Assembly: GCA_945874895.1 (NCBI GenBank)
Contig: CAMCIC010000002.1
Span: 124,001 to 188,000 of the forward strand
Direction: 5' to 3'
Length of the DNA: 64,000 nt
Source: Akkermansia muciniphila
GTDB lineage: Bacteria; Verrucomicrobiota; Verrucomicrobiia; Verrucomicrobiales; Akkermansiaceae
The notes under the pieces are model-generated. The model saw only the letters and a program-made list of their open reading frames with translations. It was not told the origin of the DNA and made no database searches. Positions within the stretch are counted from its first letter, which is position 1. Every line of letters starts with the position of its first letter. Positions 2,011 through 59,889 of the stretch are shown here, one piece after another. Position numbers and translations under genes: made by a program.

Positions 2011-2259
2011 TCAAGGAGCGAGATTCAGAGCGCGGGCGCGCTTGATCTCACGAGTGATCTGGCGATGCACCTTGGCCGGCACTCCCGTAACGCGACGTGG
2101 GAGAATTTTTCCGGTGGTCGAGGTGAACTTCGACAGCAGATCGGGATTGGTGTGATCGATTTTGTCAACAGGGATATCCTGACGACGGCGGGTCATACGA
2201 CGATTCGCCTTACGGAAAGCAATGCGGCGCTCGACGGTTTTTGGTTCGGTTTCTTGCAT
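2011..2259 (-). CDS. rpsR: 30S ribosomal protein S18
   Basis: 82 aa, basic; ...DYKNPDLL-like 'DHTNPDLLSKFTSTTGKILPRRVTGVPAKVHRQITREIKRARALNLAP' is the S18 signature. Confidence 0.95.
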   Translation of the reverse strand: MQETEPKTVERRIAFRKANRRMTRRRQDIPVDKIDHTNPDLLSKFTSTTGKILPRRVTGVPAKVHRQITREIKRARALNLAP

Positions 2260-2475: not shown

Positions 2476-3564
2476 TTAATCTTCGTCTTCGTCAAGAGAA
2501 ATCGTGTCAGAATCTTCATCTTCGTCAAAAATTCCTCCACCACTGAATCCGACACTACCGCTGGGGCGGAATTTTTTCGTGCCATATTCTTTTTCCCACT
2601 GGGATTGGCACTCAACCGTGAGACGGGCGAAAGGAATGGCCTCGAGGCGTGGAATGGGGATGCGCTTGCCTGACATTTCGCAAAGACCGTAGGTGCCTTT
2701 TTTGATGCGCTGCAAGGCCTCTTCGATTTCGTAGAGAGCGTCCTGATCTTTTGCCAGAACGCTGAGGGCGAAGTCGCGATCGTAGGCATCACTGCCTGCA
2801 TCACCTTGGTGCATGCCGCTGCCGGAGGCTTCACTGCCTTCGGGAGAACTGCGGATCGCCTCACGGGCGGAACCAGTCATGGCATCGACGATTTCATCGC
2901 GCAGGTCCAGCAATCGCTGCTTCTGTTTTTGAGTGAATGCGAGAAACTTGGGGTCGGTAATGGGCTCAACGATGATGGTAACCTCTACCACTGGCACAGG
3001 AGTGATTTTCTTCGGGATAAATTTTTTCGCAGGAGTCGCCGATGTTTTCGGAGTTGCGACAGCAGCCGGCTTGACGGTTGCAGTCACCGTCTTGGTTGCG
3101 GCAACCTTGTTCACCGGTTTTGCAGGAACGACGGCCTTGGTCGTTGTTTTGGCAACAGGTTTCGTCGTTGTTTTGGCAACAGGTTTCACGACAGGCTTCC
3201 CTGTGTTTTTAGTCGCCTTTTTTGCGACTACGGCCTTGGGTGCACTCTTGCTAGGGATTTTTTTGGCTGGTGGTTTAGGGGCGGGCTTGGTGACCACTTT
3301 TTTCGCCGGAGTCTTCGCCTTTGCCTTCACAGGAGCGGTTTTTTTCGCTGGGGCCTTGGGCAGTGGTTTCGCGGCAACCTTCTTCGCTACAGCTTTGGTA
3401 GCAGGCTTGGTTGTAGCTTTTTTCGGCGCGGGTTTCGCCACCGATTTTTTCGGCGCGGGTTTCGATACCGATTTTTTCGCTACGGGCTTGGCGGGTGCCT
3501 TTTTCGCAACGTTCTTGCTCACCACCTTGGCAGATGGTTTTTTTGCAGCTTTTTTAGCAGCCAT
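2476..3564 (-). CDS. DksA/TraR-family protein with long Lys/Ala/Pro-rich (histone H1-like) N-terminal tail
   Basis: C-terminal ~120 aa match the TraR/DksA layout (YGLCEMSGKRIPIPRLEAIPFARLTVECQSQ); N-term ~190 aa is repetitive AKKxxAKPxxK. Likely start MAAKKAAKK inside the 374 aa ORF. Confidence 0.85.
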   Translation of the reverse strand: MAAKKAAKKPSAKVVSKNVAKKAPAKPVAKKSVSKPAPKKSVAKPAPKKATTKPATKAVAKKVAAKPLPKAPAKKTAPVKAKAKTPAKKVVTKPAPKPPAKKIPSKSAPKAVVAKKATKNTGKPVVKPVAKTTTKPVAKTTTKAVVPAKPVNKVAATKTVTATVKPAAVATPKTSATPAKKFIPKKITPVPVVEVTIIVEPITDPKFLAFTQKQKQRLLDLRDEIVDAMTGSAREAIRSSPEGSEASGSGMHQGDAGSDAYDRDFALSVLAKDQDALYEIEEALQRIKKGTYGLCEMSGKRIPIPRLEAIPFARLTVECQSQWEKEYGTKKFRPSGSVGFSGGGIFDEDEDSDTISLDEDED

Positions 3565-49967: not shown

Positions 49968-50173
49968 TAAGAGGGTGACCACCTTCCGATAACTCATGGC
50001 AGCGACACGGCCCATTTCAAGCACTTCCTCTCACCCTATCTTTCGCTCGGGTGCCATGGGAGAGCGTGTCGCTCACGCTAGCTTGCTACCTAGCTCCAGA
50101 AATTTTGCGAGCCTACGATCCCTACGGATTCGCGTGCCGGGACTGCTGCCATCAACTATGAAACACCAACAAC

Positions 50174-51010
50174 ATGTCCAACGGAACTCAGGAACATAAT
50201 CCGAATCGTAACCGCAATCGTAACCGCAATCGCAATCGCAACCAACGCCACTCCTCGTCAAACCCTAACCCATCGCGCCCGGTTTCCCAGCACCAGTCGT
50301 TCGTTAACCGCGCTCCCGCCAAGAAGCTCAGTTTGTGGCAAAAACTGCTCAAAGTGCTTGGAATCTACAAAGAGCCAGCCAAATCCAATCGAACGGAGTC
50401 GAAAAAACCGAACGCACGAAACACAGAAGAGAAAAAACCCGGCTCACAACGCCCACCACGCAACGAAAAACAAGCACCGCGCAGCAACACCCGCGATGCC
50501 CGCACATCCGGAGAACCTCGTCCTCCCCGCGAGCCACGCGCTCCACGGGAAAGACGCGAGCCCACCACTGGTGAAGTGGAATCCACTCGACTCTACATCG
50601 GCAATCTCTCCTATGAGGCCAACGAGTCAGACATCGAAGAATTGTTCAAGGGCATTGGTCCCGTACGCAGTGTGGAAATCGTATACAACAAGCACACCCA
50701 CAAGTCGAAAGGCTACGGATTCGTGGAAATGTTGCGCATCGATGAAGCCAAACGCGCGGTCGAAGTGCTTCATGACCAGCACTTCATGGGCCGTCAGATG
50801 ATTGTTTCGGGCGCCAAAGCGAAAAATGCCGAAGACGGCGAGGCCGCCATCGCCGCCCGTGAACAAAAAGAACAGGCGCCCGCCTCGCAGACGGATGCAC
50901 CAGCTGCAGCTGCCACCTCTGAAGCGGAACCAGCCGTGGAAGAAGCAACCGCGATCGTTGAGGAAGTGCACTCCCTTGAGGCTGAGTCACAAAAGGAAAA
51001 CTTCGTCTGA
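50174..51010 (+). CDS. RRM-domain RNA-binding protein with long disordered N-terminus
   Basis: RRM: TRLYIGNLSYEANESDIEELFKGIGPVRSVEIVYNKHTHKSKGYGFVEMLRIDEAKRAVEVLHDQHFMGRQMIVSGAKA; (NR)n and Arg/Pro-rich N-terminus. Confidence 0.9.
   Translation: MSNGTQEHNPNRNRNRNRNRNRNQRHSSSNPNPSRPVSQHQSFVNRAPAKKLSLWQKLLKVLGIYKEPAKSNRTESKKPNARNTEEKKPGSQRPPRNEKQAPRSNTRDARTSGEPRPPREPRAPRERREPTTGEVESTRLYIGNLSYEANESDIEELFKGIGPVRSVEIVYNKHTHKSKGYGFVEMLRIDEAKRAVEVLHDQHFMGRQMIVSGAKAKNAEDGEAAIAAREQKEQAPASQTDAPAAAATSEAEPAVEEATAIVEEVHSLEAESQKENFV
50204..50245 (+). repeat. In-frame hexanucleotide microsatellite (AAYCGN)7 encoding (NR)n
   Basis: AATCGTAACCGC AATCGTAACCGC AATCGCAATCGCAACC..., multiples of 6 so length change keeps frame. 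Confidence 0.8.
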
Positions 51011-57750: not shown

Positions 57751-59889
57751 TTATGCGCCGGGAAGTTCGATGAAACCTTCCAGCTTGCGAATGCGTGTGG
57801 GGTGACGCATCTTGCGAAGAGCCTTCGCCTCGATCTGACGAATCCGCTCGCGCGTGACCTGGAACTGGCGGCCCACTTCCTCCAGCGTTCGCGAGTAGCC
57901 ATCCTTGAGACCGAAACGCTGCTCCAAAACCTCACGCTCCCGTTCGGTGAGGCTGTCCAGCACATCCTTGATTTTGTCTTTAAGCATCGAAAAGCCCGCT
58001 TCCTCCATCGGATTGTCAGCGGACTTGTCTTCGATGAAGTCACCAAACGACGTATCGTCGCTATCCCCCACGGGTGCTTGCAATGAAATCGGCTGTTGCG
58101 CCATTTTTAATACGGCACGCACACGCTCCACCGGCAAATGGATTTCCTCAGCGATTTCCTCTGGCGATGGTTCGCGGCCGTATTCCTGGACCAACTGCTT
58201 CTGCACACGCATGAGCTTGTTGATGGTCTCGATCATATGCACCGGAATGCGGATCGTGCGGGCCTGGTCGGCAATCGAGCGAGTGATGGCTTGGCGGATC
58301 CACCAAGTCGCGTAGGTAGAAAACTTGTAGCCGCGTCGATACTCGAATTTCTCGACCGCTTTCATCAACCCCATGTTTCCTTCTTGGATCAAGTCGAGGA
58401 ACGAAAGACCGCGGTTGGTGTATTTTTTCGCAATCGAAATCACCAAGCGCAGGTTCGCTTCGACCATTTCCGTTTTGGCTTTCAAGGCCATCTTCATCCA
58501 GTGGCGCAGTTGGGCATGGGCTTCATCGAAGGTCTCGATGGTATGCCAAGCGTGTTGCTGCAGCTCGCGCACGATGTTCTGCGTAGCCTTATCGTCAGCA
58601 TTGGTCTGGATCTTGCGGCCGTATTTCCAGAACTTTTGCTGGTATTCGTCCACTCTCTCGCAGAAATCCTCAATGATCTTCTGCTTGAAGTAAAACTTCA
58701 CATAGTGACGATTGAGATTTGAGATGTTCTTGGCGAACTCCTCTTGAAGTTTTTTCAGCCCACGAGGATTCTTGGCCGTCATCTGGCGGAACAGGTCATC
58801 GTTCTCCGCATGCATCGCTTTCAGCTGATCACATAGACGGGGCAAGCCCTTCATGTAGCGCTCACGACTTTCAATCTTTTTATCAAGAATCACGCGATCG
58901 AATCGCTCCTTGCCTTTGAGCAACTTGTCCGCCAGATCGAGATAGTCGAGATGCATGAAGCCGAACTGGTGCAAATGTCGTGCGACCTCGATTTCAGCAT
59001 CCTCGATGCGCTTGCTGATTTCCACTTCCTGTTCGCGCGTCAGCAATGGTACTTGGCCCATCTGCTTGAGATACATGCGCACTGGGTCGTCAAGAATATC
59101 GAGCTTCTGCTCCCCTTTCGAGTCGTCCTCATCGAGTTCGCTTTCGTCGCCACGGCGATCTTTGAAACGATCGACCTCAGAGGCATCGATGATGTCAAAT
59201 TCCATCGAACGCAACTGATCCATGATCGCCTCGACATCGTTAGGATCTACGATGTTGTTAGGCAGAATCTCATTGATGTCATCGTAGGTCAGGTATTCCT
59301 GTTCCTTGGCGAGCTTAATGAGTTCACGAATTTTTTCCTGAATTTCCGGGGTGTGGATGCGAGGTTTGTCCTTCCCACCTTTTTTGCCGGTTTTTTTGAC
59401 CTCCACGGGCGCTTCCACCGCAGTGACGGCAGTCTTGGAAGATTGGGGATTCGCGGGGGTGGAATCTTTCTTTTTGCGATCGGTGGGAGCGGTCGCTGCG
59501 GTTTTGGTCGCTGCGGTTTTGGTTGCAGCGGATTTCGGCTCAGCGGTTTTGGTCGTCGCTTGAGCAGCCTTTGTGGCCGGTGCCTTTTTCGTCACAGCAG
59601 CAGCGGATTCTTTTACCACAGGTGCCACTTTCGCAGGTGCCTTCACCGCCGATTTGGCAGGAGTTTTCTTAGCGACTTTCGCAACTGGTTTTTGGCGAGC
59701 CAACGGGGCAGACTTCGACGGCTGTTTTGCAGGTGTTTTGGATTTGACCGCTACTGGTTTCGCTTGGCCGACACCTTTGCTCTTCACAGCCACTTTCTTT
59801 TTAGCGGATGGAGCTACCTTCGCGGCGGATTTAGAGCCTGCGGGGGTGGATGATTTGGTCGGCTTGAGAGGTGCTTTCTTGGTTGCCAT
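57751..59889 (-). CDS. rpoD: Primary RNA polymerase sigma factor RpoD with long Lys/Ala/Pro-rich N-terminal extension
   Basis: sigma1.1 ([29 protein letters not shown]), [28 protein letters not shown], 2.x [37 protein letters not shown], 4.x; ~190 aa basic tail before sigma1.1. Start ATG at 59889 (MATKKAPLK). Confidence 0.96.

Follow-up and report, generated by a model that had tools for sequence, protein, structure and literature searches.

Long disordered or Lys-rich tails on bacterial proteins have been handled singly in the published cases, which concern TopA, SigA, Rho and AlgP. In Streptomyces, the complex of TopA with DNA is stabilised by the Lys repeats of the enzyme, which also make it more processive (PMC7398561), and the disordered N-terminal extension of SigA, the primary sigma factor of Mycobacterium tuberculosis, is required for function (PMC10011835). 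Rho of Bacteroides thetaiotaomicron has an added charged disordered region in which composition rather than sequence is kept, as in the tails described below (PMC13269538); AlgP (PMC9239181) and chlamydial Hc2 (PMC2848022) are stand-alone Lys-rich repeat proteins. Here we describe a 64,000-nucleotide stretch of DNA ("the window"; GC 54%) in which tails of this kind occur on two proteins of the transcription machinery, RpoD and a protein of the DksA/TraR superfamily. For the core of the latter, the closest described structures are Pseudomonas DksA2 (4ijj) and Chlamydia Dks (6ptg).

A divergent DksA-like protein with two charged ends

The dksA-like gene, its parts and the nearby rpsR are laid out as follows:

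2476-3564, minus strand: DksA/TraR-superfamily protein of 362 aa with a basic N-terminal tail and an acidic C-terminus (Pfam PF01258, AlphaFold2, Foldseek)
2953-3564, minus strand: its H1-like N-terminal tail, residues 1-204 (composition; modelled without structure by AlphaFold2)
2575-2952, minus strand: its DksA core, a two-helix coiled coil and a degenerate zinc-finger domain (AlphaFold2, alignment)
2479-2547, minus strand: its conserved acidic C-terminus, residues 340-362, ..DEDEDSDTISLDEDED (alignment of 33 relatives)
2011-2259, minus strand: rpsR, 30S ribosomal protein S18 (TIGR00165)

The reading frame opens with an ATG at position 3564 (protein start MAAKKAAKKPSAK), and its product matches PF01258 (zf-dskA_traR) at 39.3 bits, above the cut-off of 24.9, which places it in the DksA/TraR superfamily. 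In an AlphaFold2 model built on a 33-sequence alignment, the core (residues 205 to about 330) has helices at 205-238 and 256-289, forming the coiled coil of the DksA fold; block-mean pLDDT is mostly 79-95, with lower values in the inter-helix loop. The best eight PDB matches returned by Foldseek are all DksA-type, with P. aeruginosa DksA2 first (4ijj, 1.3e-6) and Chlamydia Dks (6ptg, 1.2e-4) and E. coli DksA among them, and a profile match to 6ptg reaches 2.2e-30. The coiled coil and the globular fold are thus common to all three proteins, DksA2, Dks and the DksA-like protein; however, the crystallised DksA2 and Dks chains are about 130 aa long, whereas the DksA-like protein adds a basic tail of some 200 aa and the acidic C-terminus. 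Its zinc-finger cysteines are also incomplete in comparison with 4ijj and 6ptg, since two of the four zinc ligands are left in the alignment (CEMS...TVEC), which does not make a C4-type DksA zinc finger; the relatives L012 and L016 have a single one left. Scores against the DksA equivalog models NF033459 (58.4 versus a cut-off of 105 bits) and TIGR02420 (48.1 versus 115.5 bits), and against every NCBIfam YteA model, fall below the cut-offs. We therefore regard the protein as belonging to the superfamily in a divergent form and rule out its being a true DksA equivalog.

Named relatives of the protein come from Akkermansiaceae and Haloferula, as MAGs and genomes; on this basis the host MAG is assigned to Akkermansiaceae in the order Verrucomicrobiales, and a placement in Opitutales is rejected. 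Ranks in our dataset carry anonymous labels, of which f1 is Akkermansiaceae, while g2 and f4 are inferred to be Akkermansia and Verrucomicrobiaceae, respectively. The acidic C-terminus, on which the earlier note on this DNA is silent, reads DEDSDTISLDEDED and is kept across Akkermansiaceae; its pLDDT is below 50. The peptide at its very end is VSLDEDED in Akkermansiaceae and SLDFxKE in the f4 relatives, and may be a short binding motif. In 41 of the 42 loci with enough flank, rpsR is found about 300 bp downstream of the dksA-like gene. No strong Shine-Dalgarno sequence was seen upstream of the ATG of either the dksA-like gene or rpoD.

Carriers of H1-like tails in the window and the genome

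The second tailed protein of the window is RpoD:

57751-59889, minus strand: RpoD, primary sigma factor, 712 aa (Pfam Sigma70 r1.1, r1.2, r2, r3 and r4)
59365-59889, minus strand: its H1-like N-terminal tail, some 175 residues upstream of region 1.1 (composition, equivalents in relatives)

With its ATG at 59889, RpoD scores 391 bits against the RpoD_Cterm equivalog TIGR02393 (cut-off 354), as expected of a primary sigma factor. The tail of the DksA-like protein, about 204 aa, is 26% K, 36% A+P and 1% acidic, with a net charge of +0.25 per residue, and block-mean pLDDT over residues 1-200, which lack modelled structure, is about 44-56; the RpoD tail is 23% K, with a net charge of +0.21 per residue. 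Both stand at the N-terminus and resemble histone H1 tails in being Lys/Ala/Pro-rich, highly positive and predicted to be unstructured. Their common ground is composition, together with (A/P/T/V)KK words; the sequences cannot be aligned, and because the tails have composition and not sequence in common, a genome search with the DksA tail as query matched itself alone. Against the Pfam HC2 and H1-like families, the window tails gave no match at E 0.001.

A 40-residue scan of all frames in the window ranked the DksA-like protein and RpoD first, at 40/40 and 39/40, with spurious frames as runner-up at 33, so that these two are the window's only strong cases. This bears out the earlier note in that the two proteins carry the same type of basic tail and that the other housekeeping genes of the window mostly lack one. 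As the note also said, the tract of the RRM protein (50162-51007, plus strand) is of another, Arg/Asn-rich kind: it reads RNRNRNRN at the N-terminus, and the protein has further stretches rich in Pro and Arg. Two trivial origins of the tails can be ruled out. A wrong reading frame does not account for them, as the Pfam domains lie in frame and the relatives concur; nor are they a product of recent DNA slippage, since the codons for K, A and P are mixed in both tails (in the DksA tail, AAA 33 and AAG 21 for Lys, and GCA 9, GCC 11, GCG 13 and GCT 9 for Ala) and neither contains an exact 30-nt repeat.

Beyond the window, a composition survey covered 1.66 Mb (57%) of the host genome (2.92 Mb, 26 contigs, with the window at C2:124001-188000), its final 20 stretches being chosen partly around pattern matches, and the whole genome was scanned for KK[APST][APST]KK as a codon pattern; a second codon pattern, SCNNCNAARAARSCNNCN, matched controls about as often as real sequence and was used solely to confirm loci. 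Survey and scan together added long tails on Rho (N-terminal), TopA (C-terminal) and a BlaI/MecI-type repressor (C-terminal). The pattern scan, rather than the ORF survey, also yielded a gene for a stand-alone H1-like protein of 80 aa made up almost entirely of (P)AKKA repeats. A small basic protein of 84 aa (L171:10757-11008, plus strand) reads MGQQIKKVIKRRRRKEYLRRK... followed by KKAPAKKA repeats and has no Pfam match. Tails or linkers of about 30 aa or less were found at each end of pyruvate phosphate dikinase and also on arginine decarboxylase, on a GspF-type secretion protein (a K-rich linker) and on one small protein of no assigned family. On pyruvate phosphate dikinase (L045:15044-17857, minus strand) these are short KKA tails, the C-terminal one of which is also seen in another genus (L338). 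HU is the canonical nucleoid protein; it has no tail and was rejected as a carrier.

All five long-tail carriers of known function (the DksA-like protein, RpoD, Rho, TopA and BlaI) act on DNA, RNA or RNA polymerase. For comparison, 39 ORFs of 150 aa or more were drawn at random from stretches chosen irrespective of tails and classified with Pfam; two of them act directly on nucleic acid, or four when Obg and BipA are counted. The functional bias of the long tails relative to this small sample, with classes assigned by the analyst, gives a Fisher p of 1.9e-5 to 1.2e-4, and p = 0.0007 to 0.004 once three short-tailed proteins that do not act on nucleic acid are added. In the single-contig genome G104, from another genus of Akkermansiaceae, the KK[APST][APST]KK pattern was found in the DksA-like protein, Rho and the BlaI-type repressor (a tail of about 130 residues), and also in ribosomal protein L17 and at the C-terminus of pyruvate phosphate dikinase; the remaining matches are three short or spurious frames, and the RpoD tail of this genome was found separately (L059).

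Tails in relatives and AT-hook-like motifs in RpoD

The DksA-like core is present in 180, and RpoD in 181, of the 190 genomes of Verrucomicrobiales, and tails were read in the best 30 loci for each protein and in selected others. Tail composition lasts across Akkermansiaceae while length and sequence turn over: in 50 DksA tails length ranges from 36 to 247 aa, the family medians for tail and core are 0.22 versus 0.04 for K and +0.15 versus -0.08 for net charge, and within the genus cluster core identity is 96-97% and tail identity 50-62%. The weakest DksA tails are short or nearly neutral (L018, L024, L200, L191), and in some relatives the tail is nearly lost (L018, L024, L200). The RpoD tails of 34 parsed Akkermansiaceae sequences, some of them cut at a contig start (L056, L074), have a K fraction of 0.15-0.40; seven RpoD sequences were excluded from the parsing of N-terminal extensions, of which L296, L325, L326 and L330 were read by eye and L302, L322 and L334 left out. 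One relative's RpoD tail matches HC2, the chlamydial histone, weakly (E 3e-7; 31.2 bits, under the cut-off of 40). TopA C-termini are basic in most readable sequences of f1-f3, and Rho has K/A blocks in f4 and RGRPRK with R/N-rich stretches in g2. Some RpoD sequences of g2 (L209:3-1373, minus strand; L210:349-2199, plus strand) show two tandem Pfam matches to sigma-70 region 1.1, located behind a very long K-rich extension.

The RpoD proteins of f4 lack the K/A/P tail and have instead two motifs of the type RGRP, the core of the AT-hook, for example RRRGRPRK ... KRRRGRPPK. Exactly two are found in each of the eight parsed sequences, a total of 16 versus 0.44 expected from shuffles, and all four f3 sequences have one (4 versus 0.14 in shuffles). 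Judged by sequence motif alone, basic-flanked RGRP cores thus occur above chance in the sister families f3 and f4; f2 is mixed, some of its sequences having both RGRP-type motifs and K/A-rich stretches. Elsewhere in the phylum, some families have K-rich extensions on RpoD, in a patchy manner, one has a His-rich extension, and in others it is short or neutral, suggesting that the N-terminal position of RpoD tolerates several modules, of which basic ones recur. The AT-hook-like swap at the same position of RpoD is the best argument that the sequences offer for DNA as the ligand of the tails. In L321 (G200), a relative from the wider phylum, the RpoD extension is His/Ala/Pro-rich (HHHAPAKAHAPAH...), replacing the Lys-rich one.

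The earlier note had read the two window tails as a lineage-specific strategy of adding H1-like tails to transcription machinery, perhaps serving nucleoid partitioning or phase separation. Much of the strategy stands: a composition survey blind to function gave the DksA-like protein, RpoD, Rho, TopA and BlaI, the DksA, Rho and BlaI tails recur in a second genus, and long tails are enriched on proteins that act on nucleic acid or RNA polymerase; they neither fall on random functional classes nor lose their composition in relatives. A restriction to transcription does not: the tail of pyruvate phosphate dikinase, present in two genera, is a real and conserved exception, and to it are added the short tail of arginine decarboxylase, the GspF-type linker and the tailed L17 of the second genus, with HU tail-less. 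The term lineage-specific is likewise too narrow, given the patchy K-rich RpoD extensions of the phylum and the Lys-repeat TopA and long SigA extension published in actinobacteria (PMC7398561, PMC10011835).

Proposed role of the tails and comparison with known systems

By analogy with Streptomyces TopA and M. tuberculosis SigA, nonspecific tethering is proposed: we think it fairly probable that the tails are swappable polycationic disordered modules which would raise the nonspecific nucleic-acid retention of the machinery of transcription and DNA topology. A fast-evolving polycation of the histone H1 C-terminal type, predicted to be disordered, is fused to each of the five carriers (RpoD, the DksA-like protein, Rho, TopA and the BlaI-type repressor) and most likely touches nucleic-acid phosphate weakly, multivalently and independently of sequence. 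Such binding of DNA or RNA may keep the carrier close to DNA or nascent RNA, and its predicted effects are more local holoenzyme at promoters (RpoD), a more processive TopA and a Rho that is held longer. In the DksA-like protein, the basic N-terminal tail and the acidic C-terminus could pair, so that the protein might inhibit itself until nucleic acid competes. The functional bias of the long tails, their recurrence in a second genus, the composition retained while sequence changes, the unstructured tail beside a DksA-fold core, the RGRP motifs of f4 RpoD, the stand-alone H1-like protein of the genome and the weak HC2 match count in favour of tethering; points against it are the short tails of pyruvate phosphate dikinase, arginine decarboxylase and the GspF-type protein, the tail-less HU and the near-lost DksA tails of some relatives, as well as the small size of the control and the capacity of Lys-rich regions to bind other partners, namely polyphosphate or acidic proteins.

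Polyphosphate sensing is an unlikely alternative; in it, the Lys-rich tails would bind polyphosphate during starvation, whereby RpoD, Rho, TopA and the DksA-like protein would be jointly inhibited or relocated. DksA and Rho are linked to starvation elsewhere, Lys-rich regions of E. coli bind polyphosphate (PMC12345225), the principal sigma factor of Helicobacter pylori does so too, as cited in that paper, and PPK1 is encoded in the host genome and in all 34 sampled high-quality genomes of the order. However, PPK1 does not track the tail, since it is equally present in relatives with an AT-hook-like RpoD and no K/A/P tail, and the replacement itself argues for DNA. That the tails serve as condensate scaffolds, making transcription factors co-condense with RNA or DNA, we regard as similarly unlikely: the common composition on several machines and the basic and acidic ends of the DksA-like protein would fit complex coacervation, and the disordered region of Bacteroides Rho, which has charged blocks, drives RNA-dependent condensation (PMC13269538), but in contrast to the K/A/P tails that region mixes charges and contains conserved short motifs, and simple tethering is also within reach of polycationic tails. 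Neutral or nearly neutral low-complexity expansion at free termini, with no specific role, would suit the variable length, fast sequence turnover and near-loss of the DksA tail and the short tails on two metabolic enzymes, but is highly improbable given the mixed synonymous codons free of 30-nt repeats, the positive charge retained in relatives, the functional bias of the long tails and the excess of RGRP motifs at the same position of f4 RpoD.

Returning to nonspecific tethering, a wider form of it can be put forward tentatively, and we hold it to be rather doubtful: RpoD, the DksA-like protein, Rho, TopA and the repressor might form a tail-coded apparatus of Verrucomicrobiales, co-retained by one class of module, either at the nucleoid or within a condensate, and possibly co-released by polyphosphate or lysine modification, with AT-hooks doing likewise on the RpoD of sister families.

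The tail type, and disordered tails on TopA, SigA or Rho, are already known; the coordinated spread of the tails and the module swap in RpoD look new. In the open-access papers searched, which leave out most subscription journals, we found no shared tail set in Verrucomicrobiota, no tailed DksA and no primary sigma factor with AT-hook motifs. Generic nucleic-acid tethering is used by eukaryotic linker histones and HMGA proteins, and the Akkermansiaceae tail set, together with the RpoD swap in sister families, provides a natural experiment on it in bacterial transcription machinery, extending to collective regulation of the tailed machinery, for example by polyphosphate.

Among the known systems, actinobacterial TopA (Streptomyces, Mycobacterium; PMC7398561) has C-terminal Lys repeats that resemble H1, and the host TopA is laid out alike; there, however, a single protein is concerned, in GC-rich genomes and with another C-terminal domain, whereas here the tail is common to RpoD, the DksA-like protein, Rho and BlaI as well. 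SigA of M. tuberculosis is like the host RpoD by description, being a primary sigma factor with a disordered N-terminal extension of about 200 aa; the text consulted (PMC10011835) describes neither the composition of that extension nor an AT-hook replacement. The added region of B. thetaiotaomicron Rho is Lys/Glu-rich and Asn/Gln-rich with a conserved block of 30 aa, whereas the tails here are K/A/P-rich. The number of Lys-rich pentamers in Hc2 varies (PMC2848022), as tail length does here; AlgP and Hc2 are not fused to RNA polymerase-associated domains, whereas in the host genome a stand-alone H1-like protein and the fusions coexist.
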